NCBI GenBank assembly: GCA_020975725.1
Contig: QXJR01000006.1
Span: forward strand, 372,001 to 436,000
Source of the DNA: Picocystis sp. L7
Lineage: Eukaryota > Chlorophyta > Picocystophyceae > Picocystales > Picocystaceae
Length of the DNA stretch: 64,000 bases
Reading direction: 5' to 3'
In this document: positions 15,332 through 41,493 of the stretch, piece after piece
How positions within the stretch are numbered: the first letter of the stretch is position 1
How the letters are laid out: each line of letters starts with the position of its first letter
Position numbers and translations under genes: made by a program
The notes under the pieces: model-generated
Seen by the model: only the letters and a program-made list of their open reading frames with translations
What the model was told of the DNA's origin: nothing
The model's database searches: none

Positions 15332-15604
15332 ATGGCACCGAAGTCCAAACCAGCAGCTTCCACCGGCGAAGAAGGTGAAGCAAGTGATGTGCAAAGTTTC
15401 GCATCCGTGGAAGATGTTTCTAGCCTCCGCGAAACGGTGAATCAGGTCACCGCAAGTATTCAAGACCAGTTGGAAAAGTTTCAGACTCAATTCGAGACCC
15501 AAGGACAACATGCTTTGGCCCTCCGTACAACGTTGGACCAGATCCTTCGACACCTCGAACCACCTGGGACGACCTCCGTCCCTTGGTCTTCGACCCACGG
15601 AAAC
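15332..15604 (+). CDS. Element E gag, N-terminal piece
   Basis: Start of the E gag reading frame, 36 bp after the 5' LTR. About 90 residues, with a coiled-coil-like stretch (SLRETVNQVTASIQDQLEKF) as in other Gypsy gag proteins. It is cut by transposon F, whose target duplication ACGGAAAC (15597-15604) is repeated at 21361-21368. Fossil. Confidence 0.75.
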
Positions 15605-16465: not shown

Positions 16466-16949
16466 AAGAATTTTGGCTGGTCCACCTCTGGTGCTGCTAG
16501 TACAGATGGAGTTGCTTTCACTAGTAGATAAATAGACACCGTTTTGTTGATAATGGTAGTGCCGGTGGGTAGAATGATCAACTGTTGGTGATGATGGAGG
16601 TGGATGCCGTATGCTCCTACTAGACAAAAGGGATGGCAAGTAGGGATATGAAGTAGAAACCATGCCAATTCTTGTGGGAGATTTCATCCTATATTGTGTA
16701 TGTATATTGTACATTTGTCATCAAGACTTTTTGGCTTTAGATGTCTACTTCTTTCGTAAGCAAGATTGAAGACTTCCTTTCGTCTTAGATCTCTTCAGTA
16801 CGCTTCCTCTAGAGTCTTTGCCGCTTCCGTTGCAAAGTTGTGCATGCAATGGATTTATGTGAGGCTTATGAGCTTTGTGCATGGTAGTCTTACATTAAAT
16901 CGACTTCATAAGTATAACAAATGATTACATTTCATTGTTGTCATCATCG
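16466..16949. other. Spacer inside F
   Basis: No gene recognised between the left repeat and the transposase remnant. It probably contains the transposase 3' end and untranslated region on the minus strand. Confidence 0.3.
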
Positions 16950-18050
16950 TGAATGTTTGTGTGCGCTCTTTTCTTCTTGCTATTCCAAAGCAATGCTTGG
17001 GCACATATGAGGATCATGTATCCCGCTTGGTTGCTAAAAAGCATTGAATTTTGTTGAATCCTGATATCGGCATTGTGTTGTTTACTCAAAGGTCCATTGG
17101 TGATTGCTCGATCATCGCTAGTGCAAGAGTGCGCAGGAGCGCTTGTGTGATTCCTATGGTGTGCTTGATCTTGTAAGAAGATTGTGTTCCCATCAAATCA
17201 GGTTCACGCATTGCACAAACAAGTTGTAGCTCCTTTGCGTTGCCATGCACAGTTTTCTTAGGGGGCTCTTCAAAGAAGTAGCACAAGAACTCCATAATGT
17301 CAACTGTGCTTTGTGGATCCCGTCCATGTATAACATGGACACCAACCACTTGGGAGCATGTGCCACCGAGATAATGAATGACACCGGGTACCATCTCGGT
17401 GCTCTTCTTGTACTCTTTTTCTTTGCGAACAGTGGAACTTTTTAAGTAATTCCGACCGTGACGGACAAAAGCACCGTTGGGGCCCAAGCAACCTGTCTGG
17501 GCAAACTCCAAGCTCCCCATCCTTTCGAGTTCCCCATCACAACTTCCATCCACTGGAGTATCATTAACATCCAATTTTAGTAATTTCTTGAATGTTGAAC
17601 TTCTAGCTAGTCTTTCCATCATGTAGTGGCACAAGGACAATTCCTTCTTCCGACTCCTAGTCATCCTTGCAAGGCAAAGAATGGCCATGCCTAAGTGTCT
17701 GCTTTCTCTAAACAACTCTTTGATGTCATCACGACCAAGTACTTCAATCTCTTTGTCACAAAATCTCTTTAAAATTCTTCTCGCACAAACTGGTATAAAA
17801 GTGTTCAAAGCATAAATGGAACCCAACGCTTAACACATTCCTACTAAGCAAAGAACAACTCCCAATCGCCCGTTCCTTGATATCAAAATGTGGTCACGCA
17901 ACATTCTAAGTGGTCCTATGAGATTTGTTTTTGCTTCGTCTAAATCACCAAGTTTGATTCCTTGAGTCCCAAGGTCCCACAATACTTTTCTGACGTGTGT
18001 TGGAGGACAATTCTTGTTGTAGGGAAAAACCATTGTGGATTCCTTGAACT
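16950..18050 (-). pseudogene. KDZ-like transposase remnant of F (C-terminal half)
   Basis: Homologous to the C-terminal 370 residues or so of the G transposase: for example VPGVIHYLGGTCSQVVGVHV against TPGLVYYLCGGCENVVGFHV, and AMREPDLMGTQSSYK against SLREPSFFGRTRYYQ. The copy is decayed. The N-terminal half with the cysteine clusters and first Asp is absent; the second Asp is replaced (HGN for YDN); the Glu motif reads SKQ instead of SEQ in a shifted frame; and an in-frame stop lies between the pieces ending at 17827 and 17830. It cannot supply transposase. Confidence 0.75.
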
Positions 18051-18792
18051 TGTTCCAAGATCTTTACCGCACAATGGAGAACATGGAGGAGGTCGAGCAC
18101 TTCACTCCATTGGGCTTGAAAGTCAAGAAATCAGCACTCAAAAGTTTGGGAGTGAAATGAAAAGTTTGAAAAGAGTATGTACCAACGATGAGTACTTAAA
18201 CGTGATTGTGCTATTCTCGAAGGATGGCAAGAATGAGCATGTAGCATGTTTCGAAGACCTCGATACCATTCCAACTGCCAACTATTGGCCTGATGAAGGT
18301 GGGCATATGGTAAGGGAGTGTAGGAAGCGAGCGCGTGGAATTCGAATCAGAAGAACAAGAGTGGCGATTGATTGTTGTCTTTCAATAGACCAGCAATGCA
18401 TTGCCGTGAGAACATGTCAACGAGCGATTACAAATTGCATTCTTGGAAAACCCAAGAGTCTTTTCTTCCGGCAATGTCGTACCTCTAGTAAGGCCCACAA
18501 AAACAAGGAGAAGTTACTCCTCAGCAAATTTGCCCCATGCTAGCCATTTGGTGTGCATGGCTGGAAACCAATGACACGACCTTCTGTGAAGCAAAAGGCA
18601 GATGCATCTGCCCAACTTGAAATCTTCATCCGAAATATGATTCCCGCTCAAGCAAGAGATGTGTTTTCGATTTCGCAAGCTTGGGGAGAAATAAAAATTT
18701 TCGAGTACATCACTGAAAAATCGAGTGAAAGGTCAGCAGGTGGTACAGAGTATTCAAATGATAGAGCTTCATCACGATCTCCACTACAGTAG
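18051..18792 (+). pseudogene. Accessory gene remnant of F, unknown function
   Basis: Plus-strand protein homologous to the G accessory protein: SIDQQCIAVRTCQRAITNCI here against SLQQNCVAIRYVQKAIVSNI in G, and downstream helices also align. The frame is interrupted by a stop at 18541-18543 and then continues (to 18792). The N-terminus is missing at the deletion junction with the transposase remnant. It is transcribed away from the transposase, as in G. Confidence 0.6.
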
Positions 18793-19003
18793 GACAACCA
18801 ATGCTAATGGTGCAAGACATGTTGTAAAATGGGTTACAAGCTTCTTAAGCAACCAAACATAGTCCCTTGCCTAACAACTTCTCCAACGTCCTCAATGTCC
18901 TCAATTTGCATCATATCGAATAAAGCTCAACCACCATGGATCTCCAAGATGAACCACCTTCGCCTCCATGAGAAGCAAAGAAAGTTATCTTCACACATCT
19001 GCA

Positions 19004-20640
19004 GCTGGCTGGAGGTGCACCACCAGCACCTGCACAAAGTTTCGATCCATTTGCAGGTGGTTGGAGGTGCACCACCAGCAGCTGCACTGAGGTTCCAGTC
19101 ACCTGCAGGTGGATGCAATGGCCCCACCAGCATTGCAATTGGCTGGCCATCCATTTGCAGGTGGTTGGAGGTGCACCACCAGCAGTGCCATTGGCTGGCC
19201 ATCCATTTGCAGGTGGCTGGAGGTGTACCACCAGCATCTGCACAAAGTTTCGATCCATCTGCAGGTGGTTGGAGGTGCACCACCAGCAGCTGCACTGAGG
19301 TTCCAGTCACCTGCAGGTGGATGCAATGGCACCACTAGCAGTGCCATTGGCTGGTCATCCATTTGCAGCTGGCTGGAGGTGTACCACCAGCAGCTGCACT
19401 GAGGTTCCAGTCACCTGCAGGTGGATGCAATGGCCCCACCAGCATTGCAATTGGCTGGCCATCCATTTGCAGGTGGTTGGAGGTGCACCACCAGCAGTGC
19501 CATTGGCTGGCCATCCATTTGCAGGTGGCTGGAGGTGTACCACCAGCATCTGCACAAAGTTTCGATCCATCTGCAGGTGGTTGGAGGTGCACCACCAGCA
19601 GCTGCACTGAGGTTCCAGTCACCTGCAGGTGGATGCAATGGCACCACCAGCAGTGCCATTGGCTGGTCATCCATTTGCAGCTGGCTGGAGGTGTACCACC
19701 AGCAGCTGCACTGAGGTTCCAGTCACCTGCAGGTGGATGCAATGGCACCACTAGCAGTGCCATTGGCTGGTCATCCATTTGCAGCTGGCTGGAGGTGTAC
19801 CACCAGCAGCTGCACTGAGGTTCCAGTCACCTGCAGGTGGATGCAATGGCCCCACCAGCATTGCAATTGGCTGGCCATCCATTTGCAGGTGGTTGGAGGT
19901 GCACCACCAGCAGTGCCATTGGCTGGCCATCCATTTGCAGGTGGCTGGAGGTGTACCACCAGCATCTGCACAAAGTTTCGATCCATCTGCAGGTGGTTGG
20001 AGGTGCACCACCAGCAGCTGCACTGAGGTTCCAGTCACCTGCAGGTGGATGCAATGGCACCACTAGCAGTGCCATTGGCTGGTCATCCATTTGCAGCTGG
20101 CTGGAGGTGTACCACCAGCAGCTGCACTGAGGTTCCAGTCACCTGCAGGTGGATGCAATGGCCCCACCAGCATTGCAATTGGCTGGCCATCCATTTGCAG
20201 GTGGTTGGAGGTGCACCACCAGCAGTGCCATTGGCTGGCCATCCATTTGCAGGTGGCTGGAGGTGTACCACCAGCATCTGCACAAAGTTTCGATCCATCT
20301 GCAGGTGGTTGGAGGTGCACCACCAGCAGCTGCACTGAGGTTCCAGTCACCTGCAGGTGGATGCAATGGCCCCACCAGCATTGCAATTGGCTGGCCATCC
20401 ATTTGCAGGTGGTTGGAGGTGCACCACCAGCAGTGCCATTGGCTGGCCATCCATTTGCAGGTGGCTGGAGGTGCACCACCAGCATCTGCACAAAGTTTCG
20501 ATCCATTTGCAGGTGGGTGGAGGTGCACCACCAGCACTTGCACTGAGGTTCCAGTCACCTGCAGGTGGATGCAATGGCACCACCAGCAGTGCCATTGGCT
20601 GGCCATCCATTTGCAGCTGGCTGAAGCTGTCACTGTTCCA
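19004..20640. repeat. 104-bp minisatellite with higher-order 208/312/416-bp structure
   Basis: About 15 to 16 tandem units of roughly 104 bp. Each has a TGCAGGTGGTTGGAGGTGCA core, a CACCAGCAGCTGCAC or CACCAGCAGTGCCATTGGC segment, and CATCCATTTGCAG. Identical blocks recur at spacings of 104, 208, 312 and 416 bp, so variants are arranged as higher-order repeats. The array runs into the right inverted repeat of F (from 20500), and a short piece sits at the inner edge of the left one. Because 104 is not a multiple of three, long open frames appear on both strands; these are not believed to be genes. Confidence 0.95.
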
Positions 20641-21360
20641 TTTGTGACCATGGATGATGCACATGGTAGAATTCCTCCTGATTTTAGCTGGCAATGATTG
20701 TCAGTAGAGAGTTATGAAGCAGAGTTATCAACTCCCTAGCACAGTTTCAACCGAGTGTTGAACATTTGTACCGCATGAGAAAGCCGTTTGCGTGTTTGTT
20801 CGTGACGTCGTTGCTCTCGTATCGGGAGAGGTGCCTGTTCGGTTTTGCAGGGAAGGAAAATACCTTCCCTTTGCCGCTCGTGGCCTTTCGTACTGGCCAT
20901 TTGACGACAAATTCTTCATCCAAGGGCTCTCGCAAGTTCGATGTGTCCTTCGGCATAGTTCCACCACGATTTCGAGACACCTCGACGTCAAGGGTGGCTG
21001 GAAATCATGGCGTCTGGGCCGTCTCCATCCGCCGTTTGTGCGTCCCTTCCCACTTCCTAGTTTCGCATGGTTCCATCGTCTTCACCTCCATCCCCCTCGT
21101 CGTCTTCGTCTTCGATCCATGGACCATCGCACAGGCGCACGCGTCTCCTCCATGCGCGTGTGCGATGGTCTGTAGCTCCCACCACCGCGTCCATCTTCGA
21201 CGGCCTGTGCGGACAGGGGGTGCGTACTGCCGATTTTCCACCCAGGCCCCCCTTTGTTGCATATGGGCTATTTGCAACAACCCCCCTGGGAGAAGAACAG
21301 AGAGAAAAGACTGCTGCTATTGCAGCTAAAATTCAATGGAAATCATTCCAACCCTAAGTG
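20500..21360 (-). repeat. Right terminal inverted repeat of F
   Basis: 861 bp, reverse complement of 15605-16465. It ends CCAACCCTAAGTG and is followed by the duplicated ACGGAAAC. Confidence 0.9.
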
Positions 21361-21368
21361 ACGGAAAC

Positions 21369-22625
21369 GCCCCAGTACCAGCCCCAAACCAGCCCCGGTC
21401 AGGGATACCCCAGGATTCACCCAGGAACCCAACCCAGGATTCCCCAGTATCCCTTCCTACTGGACTCCAAAACCTGACCTTACAGAAAGCTTCCAGAGCT
21501 TCCTTGGGATTGCAACAGATTGCTTCGAGAGTGGGCAAATACAAACCCGAACAGCCCAGAAAGTTCAATCTGGACCAGGGACAGGAAGCCACTGCACTAC
21601 AAATTGTTACTCTTAAAGGACAGTGGAAAGCCTTTGGTATGAACCAAAACTGGAATGAAATGGAGATTCTCGCTACGATACTCACTGAAGGCTTGGCTGG
21701 AAAATATTATGATTGGGCCAACAATCAAGAACAGTTTGAGTCCACACAATTCAGTAGCCTTCATGATTTCTTCGAGCGGCTTGCGAAGTTCCACCTGGCT
21801 GAAGAACCGATCACGAAAACGCTTGTGGACATACAACGCGCGTGGCAGCGACCGGACGAATCCCCGCAAGAATTCGCCACCCGTCTTGATGGGTATCAAG
21901 CTGTACTCAAGCACTTTGGACAGGAATCAGGAGCCCAACTCCATGATGATAAGAAGCAATTGCAATTCCTGACAGGCTTGCAACGTTACATATCGCAGCA
22001 ACTCCATACCGCTTTCATGGGAAAAGCTTTGGAAATGGACAAGACAACTTTGTCCATACTCACAGAAATGCCGTTCGCCCGAATCGTCCAGGCCGCGCAA
22101 GCGATATGGCAACAGCAGCAGCAAAACAAATTGCGTGCTACGATCGTCCGCAACAAGCCGCCCTCGTATTCGATGCCGAACGTCACGAAGCCACAATCAG
22201 TCCATGCTACCACACAAGATGAGGAGATCAAAAACTTTACGAAGCGCCAGCTTTCCTTCCGCCAGCGATTCCTACATAAAATTCTTACACCCGATCAGAT
22301 CAAACAAGCAAGAGAATTGAATTTATGTCTCTGCAGAATCAAGAAAGCACTGGTGTGTCTCTCCAGCGACCACATCGCCCGTGACTGCCCGTTACGAAAA
22401 GTGATGGCAGGAGATAGCGATCCCCCCGCGGACTATCCAGGACATCATCAGTCACACTTCGTTGAAAATGAAATCTCTGAAGATAATGATGAAGAAGATC
22501 CTCAGGAAGACATGGATCCCGAGAGTTGTTACATTCTAGACATGGACCTTTCCGATCCCGTGTTGGAACAGATTTACTGTGAAGAGGAGGAGGCCCCGGA
22601 AAACGGTCAGGCCCTGTCTCACTGA
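21369..22625 (+). CDS. Element E gag, main piece
   Basis: Continuation of E gag to the right of transposon F. It contains a Gypsy-type capsid region: FNLDQGQEATALQIVTLKGQ, then WANNQEQFESTQFSSLHDFF and WQRPDESPQEFATRLDGYQ. A zinc-knuckle-like Cys/His stretch and an acidic tail follow. It lies directly before the protease region in another frame, as usual for LTR elements. Fossil. Confidence 0.8.
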   Translation, partial: APVPAPNQPRSGIPQDSPRNPTQDSPVSLPTGLQNLTLQKASRASLGLQQIASRVGKYKPEQPRKFNLDQGQEATALQIVTLKGQWKAFGMNQNWNEMEILATILTEGLAGKYYDWANNQEQFESTQFSSLHDFFERLAKFHLAEEPITKTLVDIQRAWQRPDESPQEFATRLDGYQAVLKHFGQESGAQLHDDKKQLQFLTGLQRYISQQLHTAFMGKALEMDKTTLSILTEMPFARIVQAAQAIWQQQQQNKLRATIVRNKPPSYSMPNVTKPQSVHATTQDEEIKNFTKRQLSFRQRFLHKILTPDQIKQARELNLCLCRIKKALVCLSSDHIARDCPLRKVMAGDSDPPADYPGHHQSHFVENEISEDNDEEDPQEDMDPESCYILDMDLSDPVLEQIYCEEEEAPENGQALSH

Positions 22626-22696
22626 GTGGTGGACAGGCAGAGCAAAGCAAACTAGACACCACTCATGGCACAGATCCCGCGATCGGTAACGATCAG

Positions 22697-23366
22697 TTGG
22701 TCCCGACCTTACAATCTTTTCATGTACAGCACCAGCCCATGACACGAACGGTCACCAAGCCACCAACCGCTGACATTACTTATATCGATACGCTGGAACA
22801 CTGCAGATACTTTATAACTAGTGGTCAAGCCACTCCACCTGATGAAAAAGGATTTATGGAATTACAAGTGCTTTGGGACACCGGAGCATCGCACAACTTC
22901 ATCAGCAAAACATGGCAGGATCGTTACGAAAAACAATTTGGTACCTGCCCGGTTGTTTCAAGAAACGTACATTATCGCATTGCTGATTCTCCCGTGGAAC
23001 GCCATACGTACGTTGTACGACGGAACATCAGCTTGGGAAATGGAATCAAAACATCAGTATGCTGTTCTGTTTTGCAAGAGACTCCTACCTATGATTTATT
23101 GTTGGGAAAATTATGGATGCAACAGCATCGCATCGTCCTGGATACCTATCGTAACTTTGCTACTGGACATTTCAAAGGAAAAGTGATAGGAATACATGGA
23201 GAACATGGTGTCAAACATCAACACCCTGCCAGTAACATCCTTCATAATATTGAGGAGATCAAGTCTCAACTCAAGGAATGCAAGCAAGAAGGTTTGAGAC
23301 CTTTGTTTGTTCAGGTGCAATTGGTGTCTCAGGCTACCAGTAAATATGTGGAGAACTCCCACAGTG
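22697..23366 (+). CDS. Element E protease region
   Basis: Retropepsin-like segment with LQVLWDTGASHNFIS (the Asp-Thr-Gly-Ala active-site motif) and a flap-side YDLLLGKLWMQQH motif. It precedes the RT region of pol, from which it is now separated by the solo LTR and hAT insertion. The left target duplication of that LTR is AGTG at 23363-23366. Fossil part of E. Confidence 0.8.
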
Positions 23367-24424
23367 TGTTACCAAGCGTCCGTGAGGGACACTTTTCACA
23401 CACGTTTTCTCCCTGTGCACCTTGTCCTTGTCCGGTCGTTGGAGGAAAGAGGGTCGTAGAGCGCCTTGGGAGGTCCCTAGTTTCCGGTCTTCTCTCGCTT
23501 TCTTTTTCGAGTGAGGAGTTCCTCTCGGTTGGGGTCGTAGGAGAGCTTCTTGATGGTCGTCCGGAGCAGTTGGCGACCGAAGAGAATGGCGCACCAAGCT
23601 CACGAGGGAAAGGGAGAGCCGGTTGCTGGCTCAAGCAAAGTTCTATTCTAGCAAGTGGGTTGCTCCCCTTCTTCTTTCGATCTCTCGTGGAGAACGAGTG
23701 GTGGAAACTGCCCTCCTTATCCACTCAACAGGTAGTTGGGGGCCCACGTGGGCCCCCGCGTCCCCATCGGACGGTCCTCGGGCTGTGTCGTTGCCGACCC
23801 TATCCGGTCACCAGGGTATTCCACCGTTCGATCCACTTGGGGGGAGATTCGCCCCGACTGAGCCCGGGTCTGTTTCCCAATTAGTAAGGGGGGTGAACCC
23901 GGGTTCCTGAAGCTGGTCCCGTCAGTCCCAGTCTTGATTGGGGGGACTTCCCGTCTCGCCGAGAGTATTGGGCTCAGAGCCGGGTCAGTCCTCACTAAGG
24001 GAAGGCCTCTCCCCACTTTTCACTGCAATTGTTACTGTCTATCCTTTGAATGGGAGCTACCCTCGATGGGGGTAGGGCAGGGGTGGGTGCGAAAAGATTT
24101 GGGCCGGTGCGAAAAGATGGGTGCGAAATGGGTCGAAGGAGGGGATTTCGCACCGGGTGCGAAAAGGGCGAAATTCGATTTAGTTCTTTTTTAACAAATG
24201 CGAAATTGCTTTCATGTCATTACATATTAGACACGCTTGCAGGCTTTTCATCCGCTCTAAATTCAACCCCCATAGAACAACCGTACTTTGATTTATCATC
24301 CTAAAATATCACAAGCCCTCTACATCATTAGTAAAACAGCATAACTGCGTTTAGGAATCTCTTCTTGGAGACCCACGAGGGCCCTTACCCATACCATGTC
24401 CACTTTGTGATGACCACTTCTGCC

Positions 24425-25212
24425 GTTGATACTACTGGTGCTGTAGGAACTGCCACTGTTGTTGCTGCCACTGCTGTCGTTGGAACTGCTGATGCTATGA
24501 GAACTGCCACTGCTGCCGTTGGAACTGCTGGTGCTATGGGAACTGCTAGTGTTGGAACTAATGCCACTGCTGCCGTTGGAACTGCTGCCACTGCTGCCGT
24601 TGGAACTAATGCCACTGCTGCCGTTGGAACTGCTGCCACTACTGCCGTTGGAACTGCTGCCACTGCTGCCGTTGGAACTGCTGATGCTATGGGAACTGCC
24701 ACTGTTGCTGCTGCCACTGCTGCCGTTGGAACTGCTGATGCTATGGGAACTGCCACTGTTGCTGCTGCCACTGCTGCCGTTGGAATTGCTGCCACTGCTG
24801 CCGTTGGAACTGCTGGTGCTATAGGAACTGCCACTGTTGCTGCTGCCACTGCTGCCGTTGCAACTGCTGATGCTATGGGAACTGCTAGTGTTGGAACTGA
24901 TGCCACTGCTGCCGTTGGAGCTGCTGCCACTGCTGCCGTTGGAACTGCTGCCACTGCTGCCGTTGGAACTGCTGGTGCTATGGGAACTGCCACTGTTGCT
25001 GCTGCCACTGCTGCCGTTGGAACTGCTGGTGCTATGGGAACTGCCACTGTTGCTGTTGCCACTGCTGCCGTTGGAACTGCTGGTGCTATAGGAACTGCCA
25101 CTGTTGCTGCTGCCACTGCTGCCGTTGCAACTGCTGATGCTATGGGAACTGCCACTGTTGCTGCTGCCACTGCTGCCGTTGGAACTGCTGATGCTATGAG
25201 AACTGCTAGAAC
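24425..25212. repeat. VNTR of 24- and 54-bp units inside the hAT element
   Basis: Tandem array of GTTGGAACTGCTGCCACTGC-type 24-bp units interspersed with 54-bp units containing GATGCTATGGGAACTGCC. Unit lengths are multiples of three, so several frames on both strands stay open and encode Ser/Gly- or Ala/Val/Thr-rich repeats. These are judged non-coding, since the array begins about 18 bp beyond the transposase stop. Confidence 0.85.
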
Positions 25213-25229
25213 TACTGTTGTCAATTCTA

Positions 25230-27804
25230 CTAGGCATGCGGGTGTGCCTTTTGCACCTCTGCCATCAAGGCCTTGGGATCCCAATCCGTTTCACCGCTTC
25301 TGAGTCCAAGTTGCACTGTGGAGGCTTTCGTGGGAACAGGTGCAGCGACAAAGTCCCTGCCCTGATGCACGGCAGATTGAGACCACATGAACTCCTCTCC
25401 AAGCAACACCTCCATGAAAGTTACGTTGCTCCCATCAGGCTGAAAATTGTTGCACACCACATCTTGCATGAATTCTGCAAGACGCTCCTCCCTACCCTCT
25501 TCCTCTACTGTCCGGATGGTGTCCAACGCTGCTTCAAGGCCCTCATAGTCCACGAGTGGGCCATCTGCCCCAGTTGCTACTTCTGCTTCAGCTGCTACCA
25601 CTCCTCCTTCTGCTTGTGACGCTGCCAATGCCACCCTGGCCATCTGCTCAGATGTACTGACATAATTGCTGACATCCGATGATGCTGTCCCTACGAGCGG
25701 TACTGGTTGAGCAGACACAAGCTGCAAGTCTGCATGAAGAGCTTGCTTCTTCCTGTTGGGGTCCATGTCTTTGTTTTGGTAAAACAATCTGACAGTGGTC
25801 ATCTGTTGCAAGGTGGTGGGGCTCAGGGAGTTGCGTGTGTCGCTTTGCAGCCAGCCCATTGTACTGAATATCCGTTCCAGTGCAGCAGAATGCGGCACAA
25901 CCTGCAACAAGAGGATGGCCACATGTGCTAGTGCCGGACACTCCCCGCTAACTTGACGCCAATACACCTCCACATCAGCAATTGTTGTGCCGCATGAGAA
26001 GGAAGAGGTGGGCCCAACACCTGCGATGTACGCTTGTAGGTCAGCAATGAGCTTGCGAGCATCTGCCTCCGAACATTTCCTAGCGCTAGCAATCGTCAAC
26101 GCCCTCTCGATTAGTTTCTCTGGCATGGTCTTCGGATCGTCGGCGACAGCCAGCAACTTATACCTTGGGTCAAGCAACAACGCCAAGCGAAGCAGCACTG
26201 CGTCCATCTCACCCACCCGTTTCTTGAAGTGTAACACGCAACTCTCCACCAATGTAGTCGAACCATGGCGGTCATGCAGAATGGATAGCTGCTGAGCCAG
26301 GTAGAGCCAGTACCGGCAAACATCCGCTATCGTAGCTTGATCCCGCTGCACAGCCATCACTACCTTGCACACTGGCCGCAACAACTCGATCAGCAGCTCG
26401 ATCCCACTCCAAAAATCTCTGCTCTCGAGGGCCTCGTTCACGGCTGCTTGCTTGTTGGGGATGAGGTTAGGCACAAGTCTGAGGACTGCACGGAATGCTG
26501 GTTCCAAATTCAAGACCGAGGTGAGGCTGCGCTCCACAGAGGTGAACCGTGTTGCGTTGGCAGAGACCAGGCCTCCACCTTTCAACTGCTGCAGCTGCTG
26601 TTGTTCCCTCAACAGCCCGAGTGCACGGTGGCTTGACCTGAAGTATGCCACCACCTTCTGGACCTTGATGATGAGGTCCTTTGCCCAAGCAATGCTGCAA
26701 TAGCTGCCGAGCAGCAGTGCAAATGCATGCATCATGCAGCGGCCCTCTAGGATGTGGGTGAATCCAGGAGTCTTCACCAGCAGCTCTCTCGCTCCTTTCA
26801 GGTTGGAGGCATTGTCAGTGGTGATCATAGCCACCTTGTCTGCCCCAATTTGCTGTTCAATGACTTTGTGCAGCTCATCACAAAGTTGCTGAGCTGTGTG
26901 CCTGACAGTGGACATGTGGAGCAAGGCCATGAGCTGGGTGGTGCGGTCTGGAAGGATGACGTTTACACCATACAGACTGGCCATCGAGGCATCTGACCAG
27001 CCATCAATGCTAACTGTGAGGTTGTCAGCCTGCTCAATCAACTCTTGGATGCTTCTCTTCACGGTTGCATACTCACCCAGCAGCAACCGATCTGACAACA
27101 CCTTGCGACCTGCGAAAGTATGGAGGGGAGGAGCATGATGAGTTAGTAACCTTCTGTCCAACAAACTAGGTACACGAGGCGTAGCAGCCGCAAGCCTGCA
27201 ACTACGTGGGCTAGAGCAAAGAACGCTTACCTGGGGGCCTGTACATGGGCCGCAACGCGCTCAAGAAGTCCAGAAAGAACGGGGCCTCAGCCACGTTGAA
27301 AGAAATCCCACAAGCGACGAATGCCAGCAACTGTTTCCGCTCGATGGATGCCTGCAGCTGCGCTGGAAGGTTCGTGTCGACAAAGCTTCCGATGCGGGAC
27401 TGCAACTTTGCTTTCTTCGCGGCCGAAGCGGCGGGCAGTGGCTCCCCTGTCTTCTTAGTCCATGTACCGTCCTTTTTTCCAAGCGGGGTAGCCGCTTCTT
27501 CCGGATACGAAACGTACAGGAGAAACGCATCCTTCACTTCGTCCGGGACGTCCTTGCAACCACGGACCAGGTGCTTCGCGAGCGTCTCAGTCTTGGCCGC
27601 AGTCCCACATACCACTTCGTGGCTGTAGTTGCACACGTGGTCCCTACGCTTGCTTAGGCCCTTTGGATCGCCAGTCTGGGTGAAATGGGCCTTCACTGCG
27701 TTAGGTGGCCTTCCCCTTGCAGGCCCAGTCGCAGCGAGGATCTTCACTTCCTCCTCGTCTTCCACCTCCCGCGTGTTGCTGTCCCAATAAGAGTCACCAT
27801 TCAT
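25230..27804 (-). CDS. hAT transposase (two exons)
   Basis: Exon 1 runs from the ATG at 27804 (MNGDSYWDSN) to 27231. The 121-bp intron 27110-27230 has GTAAGC donor and CGCAG acceptor. Exon 2 runs 27109-25230. The N-terminus has a BED-like zinc finger (VCNYSHEVVCGTAAKTETLA then KHLVRGC). The middle matches the hAT RNase H-like core, with LTVSIDGWSDASMASLYGVN and MITTDNASNLKGARELL. The C-terminus has the hAT dimerisation motif (VVPHSAALERIFSTMGWLQS). About 817 residues, a usual length for hAT. Both exons are open, so the enzyme may be functional. A longer frame upstream to 27933 is possible but less likely. Confidence 0.85.
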
Positions 27805-28241
27805 CACATTCAGGCCGAAACACCGCAAGCTGCACGACAATGTTCCCGCTTGAAAGGTTTGTGGGGCACTCGAGCCGACTTGAGCACACCCCCTCTTGCA
27901 GATTAACATGTGCATGTTCAAGTTTCCGAACAAAAAACCCTAATTCCGCACCTTTTCGCACCGCCCGTTTTTGACGACAACGGTGCGAAAAGGTGCGAAA
28001 AGGTGCGGTGCGAAAATAGGGTATTTTCGCACCCACCCCTGGGGTAGGGTGACCCTTCGTAACAAGTGACAGCAAGGTCAAACTGTACAGTGTCCATGAG
28101 TGTGCAGGCTGCAGCCTAGCTGACCGCGATCGAGCACTTCAGCAAGTTGAGGAATTAAAGAAACAGTATCACTTTCTGTTCAAGGAATGGGAACAGGATG
28201 ACTTACCACCGGTACGGTCAGATTTCGATCATCGCATTGAA

Positions 28242-31200
28242 TTGCAGCCTGGATCGACGATTCCGCATCGTAATTATTATCCTATACCAGCAAAAATGCA
28301 GAATGAAGCAAGGCAACTGCTAGCTAAGTTTCTAAATGCTGGGCTTCTTCGATCGAGCAAATCGCCGTTCGCAGCTCCAATGATGCTTATTCCTAAGAAG
28401 ACCCCTGGACAGTGGCGTATCGTATTCGACTTCCGAGCGCTCAACGCAAGCACTGTCAAGGATCGTCATTCGATACTGCGCAGCCAAGAATTATTTGACA
28501 ATTTGTATGGAAGCAGAGTGTATTCTACTTTTGATCTGCAGGATGGTTATTACCACATGAGAATCAGGGAAGAGGACATTGCAAAAAGAGCAGTTACCAC
28601 ACCCTTTGGACATTATGAATGGGTAGTAATGCCCATGGGATTATGCAATGCCCCTGCTACTTTTCAAAGATTTGTGAATCATGCCTTTTCAGAGTTGGTA
28701 CATCAATGGTCATCCCTGAAAGTGTATTTAGAGGACTGCTTGATTCATACTGCTGATTACGCATCGCATGTGCGCAGTATTCAACGCTTCTTTGAACTCT
28801 GTCAACAGCATCACATAAGACTGAAGATGAGCAAAGCATATTACTGTCAAACAGAAGTGGAATTTCTTGGTTATGCCCTTCACAATGGTACACTCACTCC
28901 TGCTCAGCACTTGTTGGAAGCCATAAGGAATGCGCAACCGCCTCAGTCCATAAGTCAGGCTCGATCTTTTCTAGGCCTGGTGGGATTTTATCGACAACTG
29001 ATACCGCAGTTCGCACGTATTGCAGCCCCAATTACAAAGCTCACCAAAAAGGAAGAACAATGGTGCTGGGATAGTGAACAGCAGCAGGCCTTTGTGAAAC
29101 TAAAGGATTACTTTTTACATGGTGAACCGCCCGTTGTACGCATCTTTGATCCAGAGAAACCCATCAGAGTACATACCGATGCCAGCAACCATGCCGTGGG
29201 AGGATGCCTATCACAGTTACATGGCAAGAATTGGCACCCTGTAGCTTTTTATTCACAGGTGCTAAATCCTGCACAACGTCGATATTCGACCACCGGAAAA
29301 GAAACGCTCGCTGTGATCTCATGTTTGCGTAAATGGAAGTTCTACCTGTTGGGTCAACATTTCCATTTGTTTACAGATCATATTGCTATACCATATCTGA
29401 AAACAAAAAGAGCAGAACAACTCACTAGAGTGGAACAAGGCTTGATCGATATACTTTCGCAGTTCGATTATACGCCCCAGTATGCACCTGGACCTAAGAA
29501 TGTCGTTGCGGATGCAATCTCCAGGTGGAACACTTATCCTACACTTACTATATTGGAATTATGTGCTGGAGGCACAGGAACATTACTCCATGCACTTGCC
29601 GCGGAAATGCCAGATTATGTACGCGTATCGTACTACGCTGTGGAACATGATTTATCAGCAGCTAATTCATTGAAATCAGCTTTCGCACACGTACAGAAAT
29701 TACGACCGCATACATTGCTTGGATCAGTGGACAACATCAACTGTTATGGAACAACCATCGCAGACGCAAAACTACAGGAACTACCCCAAATACATTTGTT
29801 GTTTGCTGGAGTTCCCTGTCAACCTTTTTCTCGCGCAGCCGGTTCCAACGCAAAAGGTTTGAAAGATCCAAGACAGTGTTTCACAAAAGCAGCAGAGCTC
29901 ATACAGATAGTAAAGCCTCACAACTTTGCAATTGAATGTGTCCCATTTGCAGAACATTTGCAAAAGGACTTGGAGACAGTCAATACAATGTTGCAATGCA
30001 AACCGCAGGTACATCATCTTGATCGATACACCGCGCAGAAACGTATCCGTTGGCTATGGACAAACATTAAGCTTGACAATGAACAGATTAGCAAAACATG
30101 TGCAGAATCCGCCCCGCTCTGGATCGATTGCTTAATGGACGCTGTCCCGCAACTCGATGTGAACGGTGTACCCCGCAGAAAGTCAGCAACATTAATGGCT
30201 TCATCTAATACCTACAGTGACAGAAACAAAGCAATGTGGGTGCATGATACCACGAGAGCAATGAGATTACGCCCGATGACGCTGGACGAAAAAGCAAAAT
30301 TGATTGGATTGCCATCAGCCAGCCTGTTGATGGGTAACCAAGAACAAAAGCAACGCTTTCTCGGCAACGCAATTCCAGTTCAGTTCTTGCAGCTCCTTCT
30401 TAAACATTTTATACCAAGGTGGGTATTTCATAGTGGGCCTACCACTATTCAGTTTCACACAGATATGAATCAACCGAGTACTCGGGTTGACGACGTATGC
30501 GACAGTGTCCAGTTGGCACATACGATCGACAGCTACGTTGTGTCAGACGAATTGTACCAACGCCTACTTCAAGCAGCAGCTAATGATGACAATTATGATG
30601 AGTCTTCAGGTTTACAAACTGTAGAGGGTCGCATCGCAGTACCGAACGATGCCGATCTACGAAAGCACCTGATGTACATCAACCATGACCTACCCACTGC
30701 AGGACATCCTGGACAGAAAAGGATGCAGGAACTGATGAAAAGACAACATATTTGGCCTGGAATGACACGTGACATCAAGGAGTATGTGGAAAATTGCAGA
30801 GCATGTCAACTGGCTAAACCGTCTTACCGGCGTAAAGCACATTTACTGCAGCGCATGCCTACACCCACACGACCATTCACAGATGTTTACTGTGATCTCA
30901 CAACAGACTTGCCACTTACAACTACAGGATACGACTCAGTATTTGTGATTGTGGACAAATTCACCAAGATGACAATTTATATTCCAATAGTAAAAGCAGC
31001 CACAGCCTCCATGTTAGTGCATCTCTTTCTAAGACACGTTATTTGTCATTATGGAGCACCAGAAAGGCTCTTCACAGACCATGACACGAGGTTTGTTGGA
31101 GAAATATGGCATGATTTTGGATTGATGCTCGGTACCAAACTGCATCGAGGTACTCCTTATCATCCACAATCTGATGGACAGACCGAACGACAGAATCAAA

Positions 31201-32333
31201 CATTGAAAGCAGCCTTGCACACAATGATGGCACATCCAACAGATTGGGACAATCTGTTACCGATGATTCAATTTGCGCACAACAACGCCATAACAGCTTC
31301 AACAAAATATTCGCCATTTTACTTGCATATGGGCAGATCGCCGCGCTTACCGACGCTCGTCACCGCATGGCAAACCATCAGCGCCCGTAGCGAGGAAACT
31401 CAGCGGCGACTCGCAGACGTTTACCATGAAGTATTTGAGAATATGGATGCTCAGTACTCCAGAATGGAAAAATATGCAAATCAGTCAAGACGCGAAAAGC
31501 TATCGCAGTTTGCTGTGGGCCAACGTGTCAAGTTACGTAGACTTGGTCGACTCGCAAAGCACGCTACTCCTTTCTGTGGACCTTTCAAAATTCTGGATGT
31601 ACTACCCAATGGAGCAATTAAATTGGATCTTCCTGCAGGTTCACGCATCAGTGCATGGGTGAATGTGGAACACTTGGAACCATTTCCAGGTCCCATTCAG
31701 TCCTCAGGAGATGTTGTATCACCCTCTATGCCATCTGATACTCAGAGTACCACTGTTGAACAGTACATACTCCGTGATTGGGCCACTATACCGCCTCGAT
31801 ATTGGGTTCAATGGAGAGGACTAGAAGGAAGCAACCGTGAATCGTTCCTCGCAGAACAACAGGCACCAGGAGGTGTACAAGCTATATTAGATTGGGAATA
31901 TCAACATGGTCCCATTCCAGAACTCAACATAACTCAAGGTGACACATCCTTACAGCGAAGTCGTCATCGCGAGCAAGTTTCAGAGTACAAGTACAAGGTT
32001 TACCGCCAGTATTTTCCAATTCTGCATGACACTTGGACAACAGAACATCCAATGAAGACTTTCACACTTACAGGCCGCCATCGCTCCGTCAGACCTAGCC
32101 AACCAATGGTATTGGATCCTCAAGAAAATTTGTTGTATCGGATTGTTTGCAAACGTTTTGTGGATGAAACAGATACAGAACGGTGGTATAAAGGAAAAGT
32201 GATGGATTTTACTAATGATGGATACAGAATCAGATATGAACAAGGTGATGTAGAATACATATCACCTGAAGAACTTGTCAGTTTGCTCCAAGATACCCAG
32301 AAAATTTTTCAAACGAGGACGCTTGGTATCTAA
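28242..32333 (+). CDS. Element E pol: RT, RNase H, C5-methyltransferase, integrase, chromo-like and Tudor-like tail
   Basis: 1363-codon frame. RT comes first (PMMLIPKKTPGQWRIVFDFR), then RNase H (around PIRVHTDASNHAVGG, ending ADAISRW). Residues about 434-722 are a cytosine-5 DNA methyltransferase: motif I LELCAGGTGTLL, motif IV AGVPCQPFSRA, Glu of motif VI in AIECVPF, motif VIII QKRIR, a TLMAS target-recognition-side segment and motif X GNAIPV. Integrase follows, with an H2C2 zinc site (H..AGHPG, CRACQ) and Asp-Asp-Glu core blocks (VYCDLT, FTDHD, DGQTERQ). The C-terminus has a chromo-like segment (RYWVQWRGLEG) and a Tudor-like one (WYKGKVMDFTNDGYRIRYEQ). The methyltransferase presumably acts on DNA in the nucleus; activity is untested. 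Coding traces start left of the first ATG. Fossil copy. Confidence 0.85.
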   Translation: MQPGSTIPHRNYYPIPAKMQNEARQLLAKFLNAGLLRSSKSPFAAPMMLIPKKTPGQWRIVFDFRALNASTVKDRHSILRSQELFDNLYGSRVYSTFDLQDGYYHMRIREEDIAKRAVTTPFGHYEWVVMPMGLCNAPATFQRFVNHAFSELVHQWSSLKVYLEDCLIHTADYASHVRSIQRFFELCQQHHIRLKMSKAYYCQTEVEFLGYALHNGTLTPAQHLLEAIRNAQPPQSISQARSFLGLVGFYRQLIPQFARIAAPITKLTKKEEQWCWDSEQQQAFVKLKDYFLHGEPPVVRIFDPEKPIRVHTDASNHAVGGCLSQLHGKNWHPVAFYSQVLNPAQRRYSTTGKETLAVISCLRKWKFYLLGQHFHLFTDHIAIPYLKTKRAEQLTRVEQGLIDILSQFDYTPQYAPGPKNVVADAISRWNTYPTLTILELCAGGTGTLLHALAAEMPDYVRVSYYAVEHDLSAANSLKSAFAHVQKLRPHTLLGSVDNINCYGTTIADAKLQELPQIHLLFAGVPCQPFSRAAGSNAKGLKDPRQCFTKAAELIQIVKPHNFAIECVPFAEHLQKDLETVNTMLQCKPQVHHLDRYTAQKRIRWLWTNIKLDNEQISKTCAESAPLWIDCLMDAVPQLDVNGVPRRKSATLMASSNTYSDRNKAMWVHDTTRAMRLRPMTLDEKAKLIGLPSASLLMGNQEQKQRFLGNAIPVQFLQLLLKHFIPRWVFHSGPTTIQFHTDMNQPSTRVDDVCDSVQLAHTIDSYVVSDELYQRLLQAAANDDNYDESSGLQTVEGRIAVPNDADLRKHLMYINHDLPTAGHPGQKRMQELMKRQHIWPGMTRDIKEYVENCRACQLAKPSYRRKAHLLQRMPTPTRPFTDVYCDLTTDLPLTTTGYDSVFVIVDKFTKMTIYIPIVKAATASMLVHLFLRHVICHYGAPERLFTDHDTRFVGEIWHDFGLMLGTKLHRGTPYHPQSDGQTERQNQTLKAALHTMMAHPTDWDNLLPMIQFAHNNAITASTKYSPFYLHMGRSPRLPTLVTAWQTISARSEETQRRLADVYHEVFENMDAQYSRMEKYANQSRREKLSQFAVGQRVKLRRLGRLAKHATPFCGPFKILDVLPNGAIKLDLPAGSRISAWVNVEHLEPFPGPIQSSGDVVSPSMPSDTQSTTVEQYILRDWATIPPRYWVQWRGLEGSNRESFLAEQQAPGGVQAILDWEYQHGPIPELNITQGDTSLQRSRHREQVSEYKYKVYRQYFPILHDTWTTEHPMKTFTLTGRHRSVRPSQPMVLDPQENLLYRIVCKRFVDETDTERWYKGKVMDFTNDGYRIRYEQGDVEYISPEELVSLLQDTQKIFQTRTLGI

Positions 32334-32344: not shown

Positions 32345-32780
32345 TGTGACGCCCCGTGCCCCGTCACAATATTAACTTTGGTATAAACACGCTGTGTCTC
32401 GGTGAAGACCCTACAGACCGGACAGAATCGCAGGGTCTCTACCAGGTCCCTTATGGACAGGGTCCCCCCGTAGTCAATCGGTCAACGATTCGACTTCCGA
32501 CAGCCCCTATATATGGCACACGCTGTGTTGTAATAGATCAGATCCCTTTTGACTTGACTAGCCGTGCACCTCTTGACACCTTCGCTAGCCACAAGTCCGG
32601 ATCATCAACAACGCGTTCCAACTCTCGCTTTTGGAAGAAGACATCTACCTCCAGCAACCCCGCAAGTCGCCGTTGCTCTTCGAAGCCAAAGTTCAAGCAG
32701 ATTCCAAGAAGGCCCTCCAAGAACCCCTTTGTGGACCCACTTGAGTGTTATTCTGCGTTAACATAGTGGGCAGCACCACA
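32345..32780 (+). repeat. 3' LTR of element E
   Basis: 436 bp, TGTGACGCC...GCACCACA. It begins with a short hairpin (TGTGACG...CGTCACA). It matches the split 5' LTR with about 11 differences, mostly transitions. Confidence 0.92.
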
Positions 32781-33709
32781 ATGCCAGAGACCTGGGTGCA
32801 GCCTCCTTCTTCTGTGGCATGAAGGTTAACAGAGACAGAAACAAGAAGTTAATCTATCTCAGTGAACCTGAGAAGATCCAGAAGTTAATCAAGCAGTTTA
32901 ACATGGAGGACTGCAAAACCAAGAAGATTCCCTTGGATGTGGTGTTAACCAGTGAAAAGGATGGTGAACCCTGTGACACCACGGAGTACCAAATCCTTGT
33001 TGGGAGTCTACTCTACCTCTCAACCACTACCAGACGAGACCTCTGCCAAGCTGCTTCACAACTGTCCAGATTCATGGCTTGTCCCACTAAGTACCACCTC
33101 AAGGCAGCCAAAGGGGTACTCAAGTACTTAAAAGCAACAGTTAACCATGGTCTGTGTCTGGGGGATCGCCTCGATATCCTGTCTGAAGATCTCGATCAAG
33201 CAATCGATACCTTTACCCTTACTGGTTAGTGTGATGCAGACTATGCCACGGACAAGGAAACCAGAAAGTCCAGAACAGGATATCTTTTCTTACTGAATGG
33301 AAGCCTTTTCTCATGGCAGAGCAAGCTTCAATCTACTGTATCAACCTCCACAACAGAGGTTGAGTATCAACCGGCATCGAGTGCCGTCAAAGAGGCACTC
33401 TGGTTAAAAAACCTGCTTTCTGATTTAACAGGTGGCAGTTTAAACAAACAGGTAGTCACCTACTGTGACAATCAGGCATGCATTGAGATCGTGGACAACA
33501 ACCACAGCATGCAGAAAACCAAGCATATTGATGTGGCCCATCACTTCGTCCGCGAGCGGGTCATGTTCGGCGATATCACGTTCCGATATTGCGAAAGTGC
33601 GGAGATGTTGGCTGACTCACTAACTAAAAATTCAAATCAGCAAACATTTTGGAAGTGCATTACAAGGCTTGGTATAACTCCAATCATATCAAGAGATGCC
33701 ACAAACTGA
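32781..33709 (+). mobile_element. Ty1/Copia remnant: end of RT and RNase H
   Basis: Copia-type sequence starting abruptly at the 3' LTR of E: FFCGMKVNRDRNKKLIYLSE, YQILVGSLLYLSTTTRRDL, then RNase H with [31 protein letters not shown] and [10 protein letters not shown], ending in ADSLTK. No left half was found across E. It is a broken fossil. Confidence 0.85.
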
Positions 33710-37827: not shown

Positions 37828-40800
37828 TCAGCTGAAAAAGTACGGAGAGCTTCTAACAAGCCCAAGATTGAGGGTGCCAGTTTGAGGAACTTTCGGGAAT
37901 GCCACATGCGGAAGTTCGCTCTGAAACTCGTGCAGGAGACTTTCAAGCAATGGGTAACCATGCAGCTCAACGAACTTTTCTCTTAGGATGGTATTCATGG
38001 CATCAACAGTCCCCGCATGGGTCCAGAAAGAGTCATGAACGCCCGCAAACGAGAGGCCTTGATGATAGCACTCGGTGGCGGTCATCATCATGTGTGTGCT
38101 GTCAATAGAGTGAATGTAATTTGGAGGAAAAGCGCTTCTTTGTCGCGCCAATGCTAACGGGAGACGTTCGGAATTCTCCACTATGATAAGGCGCTGTAGC
38201 ACTGTTTTGACGCTATGTCTCTCGCGGTGCCGGTATGGCTGAACCACAGGAAGACCTAGCGGGGTTGTCCAAGCAACTGGTTTACCATTCGATGCAACAA
38301 GGTGTGCACACTCGGTGAGCCAGTTCATAATATGCTTGGCACTACTGAACATTGTATGCAACGAGTCCAGCGTGATTCGGGCCGCATAGCATGCTGTCTT
38401 GTAAATATCGTCCTCCGCGCGCCAACCTCTTTCCTTGAGCCTGCTCGTGATTTGCTCCCTCGCTCCAACAAAGGTCACCCCATAGACGCTGGTCATAACA
38501 GTCTGCTTCACCAGCTTACGATCGACCTCCTTGAGCAGCTTCTGCGCTTGCACATTGCCTTGCAATGCATCCTCCTCAACCCGGGCCGCAACCAGCTGCG
38601 CAATGCCTGTGTACACATCAGACGGTTGTTCTATGGGCACTAGATTCACTGCCCGTCCACCTGACTCATCACGCCCCAATGCTGCATAGTGTTGCAAGCC
38701 ATTGCAGGATCCATCCTGATGGACGGGCAAGGAGGAGAAATAGTTCTCTGGATCGCCAGAAGCAAGAGCATTCCGAACCTCGACACAAGCGGCCAGACAC
38801 TGCCATGGATTGTCGGCACCAAGCCACCAGCGTTCACCCATCAAGGGGTTTCGAGCACTGTCCAAGATGGACTCAATATTCTCTTCAGCCCAGACCCTCC
38901 TGCCTGCTATTGACAACTTGCTTGGCGGACCACCTTCAACGTCCGATGTGAGACGAATCGCGGACAGGTTGAAATGGAACCAAGTATGCAAAAGGTGTAA
39001 GAAAGAGACAAAGGGTCAGTCGATGCTCACGAGCAAATTGTCACATCCCAACACACCCATTGCATGTCTGCCGACAGCGCTCCTATAAAACGACGACCCC
39101 ACCGCTGGTCGGGCGCAAAAAAAAGTAGATGGGTGGCTGCAAAACAGCCCAGCCGTAGCCAATGCAGCGAAAATGCCATCCGATAACCCAGAATTGTCAT
39201 ACCCGTGTCCATCGCATTCGCAAGCAAGAGTCTTACCATACAGATTCGCAACATGAGTGAGCAGCCAGTTCAGTCCAGTAGGGCCAAGTTTGCGAGGACG
39301 GGCGAATTGAAGCACGCCTCGGCATGCATCGTTCCCCAAGTGATTCAGGTACGGGTGCATTGGGTATGCACGGCCGCGAAAATCCAGGTTGTGCGGGAAG
39401 TAAAATACAGGCTCTTCCCGCAGATCGCGCGCCATTTGCAATTTGTACACAAAGTCACAGCGAAGCGAGTGCAACTCCCGATTCTGGCGTTTGACACGGG
39501 CCTTCAATGATCTGTACGTGCGCAGAAGCTCGGCCTTCTCCCTCTGACTGGATGGGGTGAGGTGCCAGCCACACCGAAGACCCCCTGCTTGGTTGGTTCG
39601 CTGAATGCCAAAGAAGGAATCGAAGCGAGGGGCTTCAAACGGCTCGGGTAGATCGATGTTCCGTTGACAAGGAATGCCCCCGGCCCCGCCGCCGGACTGC
39701 CAAATGGATTCCATCACTTGCAGGATTTCGCTATTGATTTTCCATCCTGTAGCTCCAAGTGCATTCAGGGCATCGTATACCTTGGACAATCCCCTCCCTA
39801 GTCCGGCTTCGGACTCCCTGTCTGCCTGCCGCAGCCTGTCTGCTTGCAGCTTCGTACCTCGCGTGCGCATCACCAATGCCCGCAGCGAGAGATGCCCCCC
39901 ATCGTCCCTACGGGTCCACGGTTTTGGTGGTATCAACATTGGCATGTATCTCGGGCTCAAGCTTGCCCGCACTGCGTGTCCGTCGTTGACGAGCTGGAGG
40001 ACGTTGGCATGGCAAGAGATACTGCCGTGCCTTTTCCAATGATCCCCTCTCTTCCCCCTGGCCATACTGCCGCTTCCCAACTGATATCCATGATGAAAGG
40101 CTGGCACCTGGAGCGGTGCACCTTCCCACTCTTTCGAATGTAAGTCGTGGTTGCATTCGTCGACTTTTGCAGATTCAATCAGGAGTTTAATCAAGACCGT
40201 TCCCAACTTTGCGAGCACATCTGGCCCCCACAACGCCGCATCCTCCGCCAGGGCGGCACGAGCATGGCGATTCACGACCACCACTCCTCCGCCAGGACGC
40301 CTCCATCTGGCTTGTATTTGTTTCATGCGGGCATCCAAACCGCTTGAATTGGATGCGAACCGCGCATCGCTACCGTCCGATCCCCCCGGTCGTTGCGAAG
40401 GCGCGACCAATCCTTCCGTCGTGCTGTCCACTTGATCGTCCTCCACGCCTTCGATCGCAAGGTTCCGTGCGCCGCCTTCGTGGATGACGTTATGGGTGAT
40501 TTTGCGGTTTCGACGCTGCGCTTGGGCTCTCAGCCTTTCGAGGTTGACTTGAGCTTGCACGCACTTCCCCACGTGCAAGGCCGCACGTGTGAGTCGCACG
40601 CTCCCTGCTTCTTCTTCGCTGAGGATGAGTCCCAGCACTCCATGCATGGTGATGACGGCCAATTTCTGCGGTTCTACCAGCAAGAGGTAAGGACCGTACA
40701 CGCCTCGATCGGTCCCTTTTTCCCGTCTACGAACGGCTTCTTGTTCTTCCGCCACGGCGTCGCACATGGGTCCGAACCATTTGGCGAGGAGTGCTCTGCC

Positions 40801-41277
40801 AGGTCCAGCGCTAGCTGCTTCTCCTCTGGCATCCCTAGATTTCGCTTCTTCTCGATACCTGCACACGGCTTCGTCGACGGCGCGTGTTTCCAAGGCCAGC
40901 TGGCGGCGTACCAGGGCCGCATACGGCGTGCTCGCTTCGTGCGGATCGTTGGCACGTTCATTGTCCATCCCTGCATCCATGCTGATGCCTTCTTGTGCGG
41001 TGCGAAAGGAGAGGGATCCTGGTGCGGCCGATTGCAAGGCACGTGTCACCCATTTCTGGTGCGCCGCCTCCTCGTGCGTCGTTTGGTTCCATCCGGTTTG
41101 TGGTTCCGTCGTGTTCAGGTGGGTTTCTCCTCTCCACGTGTCTTGGATTCGTGCGTCTTCGTGGATGGACATCGTTCGTCTCCATCCTCGTCGGTCCCAG
41201 CACGGGAGAGGGTTTCGTTTCGCCATCTCCCACAGGCGTCGCCTTCCCATGCCCACCATGTCGACCTCACGTCCCAC
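37828..41277 (-). CDS. Organellar (mitochondrial-type) single-subunit DNA-directed RNA polymerase, T7 family
   Basis: Two exons: 41277-39237 and 38933-37828. The 303-bp intron 38934-39236 has donor GTAAGA and acceptor TTGAAG. The junction falls in the conserved ANLYG region, and the spliced frame encodes about 1048 residues. The N-terminal domain contains YGPYLLLVEPQKLAVITMHG. Further on are NLDFRGRAYPMHPYLNHLG, catalytic motif A HQDGSCNGLQHYAAL (Asp), motif B KQTVMTSVYGVT (Lys, Tyr) and motif C GVHDSFWTHAG (Asp), all intact. It transcribes organelle genomes; the Arg-rich N-terminus fits mitochondrial import, though plastid targeting cannot be excluded. The start at 41277 lies 78 bp from an inverted-repeat element, so the promoter is short or partly transposon-derived. 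No second copy is seen in the window. Confidence 0.92.
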
Positions 41278-41493
41278 TGCCCCCTTCCCACACAGACACC
41301 ACCAGAGCCCTATTCACATGTCAAGGACCGAGGGGAATCGGGGGGAGGGGGAAGTGTGGTTGCGACTGAAAAATGGTCCCCCCAGGGGCTGAATTTTGCC
41401 CCCCCCCCCTCCAGATGCACTTTCGAACAGATGCACCCCACTCGATCGACTTAACCCATTGTTTACGAAGAGACCGGTTCGACCCGGGTGGAA

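Follow-up and report, generated by a model that had tools for sequence, protein, structure and literature searches.

A predicted DNMT3-type cytosine methyltransferase domain within the pol of Ty3/Gypsy retrotransposons of the green alga Picocystis

Three Ty3/Gypsy retrotransposons (here E, G and H) in a stretch of 64,000 nucleotides from Picocystis sp. L7, the window of this analysis, carry a predicted C5 cytosine methyltransferase domain of the DNMT3 type in pol, between RNase H and integrase. Capture of methyltransferases by retrotransposons is known but rare. The simplest reading is a single old capture that took place before E, a member of an older lineage, split from G and H. As a full explanation, this capture combined with methylation within the cDNA-integration complex has in our estimate a probability of about 60%.

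Element E is assigned to Ty3/Gypsy by the order of reverse transcriptase, RNase H and integrase in its pol, which is the same in G and H, and its two flanking LTRs agree with this class. Downstream of a hAT insert, the pol ORF of E runs from 28053 to 32333 on the plus strand (1426 amino acids from stop to stop, zero internal stops), and Pfam finds in it RVT_1 (residues 113-275), RNase H (339-460), DNA_methylase PF00145, Integrase_H2C2 (866-924), rve (940-1038, with 29.3 bits below the cut-off of 32.6) and a Tudor-like end. The sequence-only reading had claimed a C5 methyltransferase in frame between RNase H and integrase of this Gypsy pol, and the Pfam order, the motifs and the open frame bear this out. 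The domain covers 29544-30422 (plus strand) and is called from PF00145, motifs, trees and fold. PF00145 matched with an E-value of 1.6e-16 in the whole ORF, with the best stretch at residues 500-648, and with 1.4e-18 when the segment was searched alone; the profile search against C5-methyltransferase families, named earlier as a possible refutation, thus placed E inside the family. What we take to be motifs I, IV, VI, VIII and X lie on the plus strand at 29550-29588, 29805-29837 (catalytic Cys codon 29817-29819), 29925-29948 (Glu codon from 29934), 30027-30059 and 30357-30380. The nucleotide coordinates of the earlier reading were therefore correct (motifs I to X at 29550-30380), but its residues 434-722 do not fit the ORF of 1426 amino acids, in which these motifs span residues 500-776.

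A search for other copies, also proposed earlier, yielded G and H in the window and a relative in a soda-lake contig (L011). Element G (53075-56965, minus strand) encodes reverse transcriptase, RNase H, methyltransferase (55780-54911) and integrase, with a stop just upstream of the ORF. Element H (58094-63127, minus strand) has a single pol ORF of 1677 amino acids with reverse transcriptase, RNase H, methyltransferase (60937-60065) and integrase; an ORF upstream of it (63082-63999), which is without Pfam match, may be its gag. In all three pol ORFs of the window the methyltransferase is located between RNase H and H2C2. An integrase fragment of a further relative (50755-52347, minus strand) is 54% identical to H. 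No LTR pair was found for G or H within 44000-64000 at the settings used, and H reaches the end of the window. When viral_contigs was scanned with A4, A5 and A6 for more retroelement copies, no relative turned up.

L011 is contig PUNI01000121.1 (4661 bp), which comes from a prokaryote genome collection and whose record is titled Rhodobacteraceae MAG. The first of its ORFs, in which Pfam found nothing above the cut-off, is assigned to gag by position and by a zinc knuckle recognised by eye, and its second ORF contains reverse transcriptase, RNase H, methyltransferase and integrase as well as a weak aspartyl protease (17.3 bits, cut-off 24.3). Since the domain content is that of a Gypsy element, we infer a eukaryotic contig, which is probably a contaminant in the prokaryote collection. 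The MAG comes from soda-lake sediment, and its sample code B1Sed10 belongs to a soda-lake study whose consulted part counts it as a dataset of high salinity (PMC6146748); the same text describes Bitter-1 as a salt-saturated lake, and in our own reading the B1 of the code stands for Bitter-1.

The PF00145 scores exceed the curated cut-off of 22 bits in all four elements, with 67.8 for E and 37.2 for H (domains alone) and 36.0 for G and 28.7 for L011 (whole pol). PC of motif IV, E of motif VI, RxR of motif VIII and GN of motif X are present in this order in four of four. Judged by profile and motifs, the four domains belong to the C5 cytosine methyltransferase family.

The type of the domain becomes visible when several sequences are combined. 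Single-sequence phmmer searches with E or H decide no type: E alone matched HhaI best (0.012), and H alone matched Dcm-type chains (0.12) and DNMT3B (0.18). The three-row profile A1 listed DNMT3B/3A first (4e-6, positions 74-288 of 290), while a Dcm-type chain (2.5e-5) was matched over positions 85-145 only and HhaI reached 3e-4. An AlphaFold model of the E domain built with 16 rows (pLDDT 75.8, pTM 0.79, residues 201-241 mostly poor) was compared by Foldseek, and DNMT3-family entries occupied all of the best 50 of 106 rows with E<=0.001; these best 50 had TM values of 0.58-0.65 by query length and 14-17% identity. A tree was calculated from 29 rows, namely the four retroelement domains, DNMT3A/3B, nine phage or viral-contig enzymes, DNMT1, DNMT2, HhaI and 11 Dcm-type enzymes. 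The retroelement domains, DNMT3A/3B and the nine phage enzymes were split from DNMT1, DNMT2, HhaI and the Dcm-type rows with a support of 100/99, and this split was kept when DNMT1, DNMT2 and the DNMT3B piece were removed and fewer columns were used. On the evidence of the profile, the fold and the tree, the domain is thus of the DNMT3 type, being closer to DNMT3 than to DNMT1, DNMT2, HhaI or Dcm, and an origin from a Dcm/HhaI-type enzyme is ruled out by the same three lines. PHROG families were also tried as a classifier and were dropped, since phrog_116 does not discriminate: its matches include E, H and L011 and likewise DNMT3A, DNMT1 and HhaI.

The source of the domain is a different matter, and a phage- or bacterium-borne DNMT3-type methylase as donor, instead of a Dnmt3 gene of the host, is possible, if somewhat doubtful. 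A profile of the retroelement domains scores the nine phage or viral-contig enzymes with 39.6-64.9 bits and thus higher than DNMT3A (34.8 bits), and a clade of the retroelements with DNMT3 alone is disfavoured (p-AU 0.022) in a tree in which eukaryotic Dnmt3 consists of human DNMT3A and a piece of DNMT3B. This tells against asserting that Dnmt3 was captured from the host; clades with DNMT1 (p-AU 0.031) and DNMT2 (0.022) are disfavoured about as strongly. E, H or A1 served as queries for the phage rows, which are hence biased towards these, DNMT3A/3B sit on a long branch, and the tree is without plant, algal and protist Dnmt3 and without the KnitGypsy sequence. Since the phage rows were picked by likeness and the DNMT3 branch is long, the tree is compatible with a eukaryotic Dnmt3 as well as with a phage-like donor.

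Whatever the donor, a single capture agrees with the comparison of the four elements, whose methyltransferases form one clade in the tree (support 100/100); a second, separate uptake into this position would be the less simple reading. Between E and H the amino-acid identity is 0.45 for reverse transcriptase, 0.35 for RNase H, 0.38 for the methyltransferase and 0.35 for integrase, so that across this distance the methyltransferase has kept as much of its sequence as have RNase H and integrase. Tblastn of E against G and H gave 36-37% for the methyltransferase, 37-39% for reverse transcriptase-RNase H and 28-30% for integrase, and between G and H the values were 68%, 87% and 68%, respectively. 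Of the four domains it is the methyltransferase that is least conserved when G, H and L011 are compared (identity 0.69-0.75, with 0.73-0.93 for the other three); between G and H its identity is 0.69, with 0.73 for integrase.

Since dS was saturated in 19 of 20 comparisons, pN and pS were used for these and no dN/dS ratio is given. In codon alignments, pairwise comparison of G, H and L011 (three pairs) gave a methyltransferase pN of 0.165-0.204 and a pS of 0.75-0.84; pN being well below pS, the domain is under purifying selection. For the same pairs pN was 0.109-0.180 in integrase, 0.106-0.117 in RNase H and 0.038-0.069 in reverse transcriptase, showing that selection on the methyltransferase is less strict than on the other three domains.

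Concerning the function, we infer activity, substrate and benefit of the domain as follows. The pol of E, G and H would have taken up the DNMT3-type domain between RNase H and integrase, most simply once, so that the methyltransferase would be made as part of Gag-Pol and carried in the particle together with reverse transcriptase and integrase. There it could methylate cytosines in the freshly made cDNA or at the site of insertion, and as a result the copy might resemble methylated host DNA, or its expression might be tuned after insertion. The position beside RNase H and integrase, taken together with precedent, makes action on the new copy within the cDNA-integration complex most likely.

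Self-methylation would be expected to leave CpG depletion, and this was absent from the pol of E, G and H relative to the window: the CpG observed/expected ratio is 0.78 in E, 0.79 in G and 0.83 in H, compared with 0.78 in the whole window. These values thus carry no mark of self-methylation and lend no support to the idea that the elements methylate their own or host DNA. Depletion was found in the hAT transposon (0.52) and in a MULE ORF (0.61). If the host methylates CpG, the expected loss is missing from these three elements; other sequence contexts, RNA or the insertion site may be the targets, or the copies may be too young. In the hAT ORF (25230-27260) the CpG ratio of 0.52 is accompanied by an elevated TpG/CpA (1.54), a pattern suggestive of methylation and deamination in the host.

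The missing depletion in DNMT-bearing elements also speaks for a working DNMT3-type enzyme whose main target is not its own cDNA, acting instead on host chromatin or RNA or slowing transposition, with an indirect benefit for the element. RNA methylation and slowed transposition are discussed by De Mendoza et al. in the consulted part of their paper (PMC5890265), and the Tudor-like end of E could bring pol to chromatin. The neighbourhood of RNase H and integrase within pol argues, however, for the cDNA-integration complex, and we regard such a different target as unlikely.

A loss of catalysis, which would reduce the domain to a spacer, structural or DNA-binding, that separates RNase H from integrase, might be suspected from motif VI, which reads ECV or ECT and not ENV, from the motif I loop, whose length differs between E and G/H/L011, from the mostly poorly modelled stretch of E (residues 201-241) and from the lower conservation of the domain among G, H and L011. 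Against this, the catalytic Cys, the Glu of motif VI, RxR and GN are unchanged in four of four elements although the E domain is only 37-38% identical to those of G, H and L011, and we consider a mere spacer very unlikely.

An assembly chimera or chance frame, in which a bacterial Dcm gene was joined onto a retroelement contig, is refuted and found no support, since the junctions are shared by three window elements and an independent assembly, 0 of 300 shuffled sequences match and the Dcm-type rows fall on the opposite side of the tree. The control behind these figures was a profile of the 25 methyltransferases of the tree set that do not come from these elements, with which the window ORFs of at least 50 amino acids (n=702) were scored. 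Only three of the 702 matched at E<=1, and these were the pol ORFs of E (3.3e-26), G (1.2e-24) and H (1.2e-21), whereas 300 residue-shuffled copies of the E, G and H ORFs gave 0 matches at E<=10. Because the order of RNase H, methyltransferase and integrase recurs in G, H and L011, E is not a chimeric join, and a join of this kind, which the sequence-only reading had named as a possible refutation, can be set aside.

That E is not a working element counts against the reading of one capture and action on the new copy. The 5´ LTR of E is divided into two parts (3409-3509 and 14952-15297, plus strand); the stretch 3408-3509 is identical to the 3´ LTR (32345-32782, plus strand, preceded by a purine run) in 100 of 102 bases and the second part in 337 of 347 aligned bases. 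Since the LTRs are 97-98% alike, the insertion of E is fairly recent. No target duplication was seen by eye at the ends of E, where the original left flank may have been replaced. The LTR is interrupted by a probable DNA transposon (3510-14951) with inverted ends that are 99% alike and a 9-bp target duplication; this 11.4-kb insert contains an ORF of 665 amino acids (11373-13370) without Pfam match. The probable gag frame, assigned by position, starts at 15332-15607 and continues at 21358-22625 (both plus strand), the latter part without Pfam match, and between them an element with 864-bp inverted ends (99.3%) and a TAA duplication has been inserted (15611-21354). This insert carries an array of 52-bp repeats (18993-20696), and, short of a Pfam scan of its ORFs, no transposase was recognised in it. 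The protease region follows at 22583-23884 (plus strand; Asp_protease_2 with 5.3e-4 and 21.1 bits, below the cut-off of 24.3), and the hAT transposon (24078-28041, 8-bp duplication) separates it from reverse transcriptase. The catalytic motif of reverse transcriptase is usually YxDD; it reads YLED in E (28725-28736) but YMDD in G, H and L011. Three nested transposons and the YLED motif make E a broken copy, and since the pol of H is open, the candidate working copy is H instead of E.

The surroundings of the three elements contain further mobile sequences and host-gene candidates. A Copia-like fragment (32783-33709) starts where the 3´ LTR of E ends (RVT_2 with 20.4 bits, below the cut-off of 31.6), and at 41493-44756 560-bp inverted repeats that are 99.3% alike enclose an ORF with a SWIM domain and, below threshold, a MULE match (42100-44244). 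By eye, an ORF at 47525-48400 resembles the end of a tyrosine recombinase, without Pfam match above the cut-off. A single-subunit RNA polymerase of the phage type (RPOL_N, RNA_pol), which may be of a green-lineage kind, is encoded at 37828-41313 (minus strand), apparently with an intron, and an ORF with a DUF3223 domain (1171-3135, minus strand) is a host-gene candidate. No tRNA was found in the window, and Rfam gave no match at gathering score.

The pol of E ends in a Tudor-like domain (PF21743, PTM_DIR17) at 32142-32288 on the plus strand. The call comes from one Pfam match near the cut-off of 27.2 bits, which scores 25.7 bits and thus below it in the whole ORF and 29.7 bits and thus above it when the C-terminal 177 amino acids are searched alone. 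An AlphaFold model of this end is unusable (pLDDT 35), and the homologous end of H, 25% identical to that of E, has no Pfam match. Methyltransferase and Tudor-like end in one pol are possibly a new combination: a literature search conducted mostly at the level of listings revealed no description of a Gypsy element with both, and among the partly consulted literature that was searched E would be the first.

Cytosine methylation is usually a weapon of the host against transposons. Elements that carry a methyltransferase reverse this weapon, and with them the benefit that a transposon draws from writing the mark can be tested directly; H provides an open reading frame that can be used for such a test. 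The presence of several elements in one window and of a relative in an independent sample suggests that such captures persist and diversify.

Retrotransposons with methyltransferases have been described in several lineages. A paper from 2025 refers, in the part consulted, to elements with a Dnmt3 in streptophytes and in dinoflagellates, which it lists as LTR Copia and DIRS (PMC12344493), and according to the consulted text of PMC6338049 adenine or cytosine methylases are carried by retrotransposons of charophytes, green and red algae and stramenopiles, a distribution that tells against novelty of the spread. Within the open literature, largely by listings and with preprints and subscription papers outside the search, no C5 methyltransferase in a Gypsy pol was found beyond the case of de Mendoza et al. 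2018.

The best match of the domain by profile and by fold (best 50 of 106 rows) is the catalytic domain of DNMT3A/DNMT3B, in which the motifs read PCN, ENV and GRSWSVPV, in contrast to PCQ, ECV/ECT and GNAIPV or GNAFPV (motif X) here. Gypsy-10_Ec32 of Ectocarpus is a Gypsy element with a Tudor domain at its C-terminus, where E has its Tudor-like end, and according to its authors it is the first transposable element reported to have one, but the consulted part of that paper mentions no methyltransferase (PMC12477816). Further comparisons come from PMC5890265, as far as the consulted part describes them. SymbioLINE-Dnmt is likewise a retrotransposon-borne C5 methyltransferase; it is however found in an upstream ORF of a LINE, belongs to an orphan clade and is CpG-depleted, whereas the domain studied here is of the DNMT3 type, is located in a Gypsy pol and shows no CpG depletion. 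Like E, G and H, SymbioDIRS-Dnmt3 of Symbiodinium has a Dnmt3-type domain in Pol, and CG methylation in yeast was obtained with two of its copies; it is a DIRS element with a tyrosine recombinase, while the elements here have a DDE integrase.

Closest is the LTR Gypsy element of Klebsormidium nitens, for which a Dnmt3 in Pol has already been described (de Mendoza et al. 2018, PMC5890265, as given in the consulted part). Like E, G and H, KnitGypsy-Dnmt3 has a Dnmt3-type domain in the Gypsy Pol ORF, several copies, conserved key residues and purifying selection. Its domain gave no methylation in yeast, a result that the authors call inconclusive. It would be quite a bold reading, and an improbable one, to see in the elements described here a Gypsy lineage apart from KnitGypsy, which received its domain from a donor of phage or bacterial type, spread to more than one eukaryote (the present host and another from a soda lake) and in E joined a methylation writer to a Tudor reader to choose and mark the insertion site. 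The repeats of KnitGypsy are DIRS-like, whereas E has plain LTRs, and the word Tudor has 0 occurrences in the main text on KnitGypsy, whereas E has a Tudor-like end. Since its LTRs are plain and not DIRS-like, E is, compared by description, of the same kind as KnitGypsy but is not filed as KnitGypsy.
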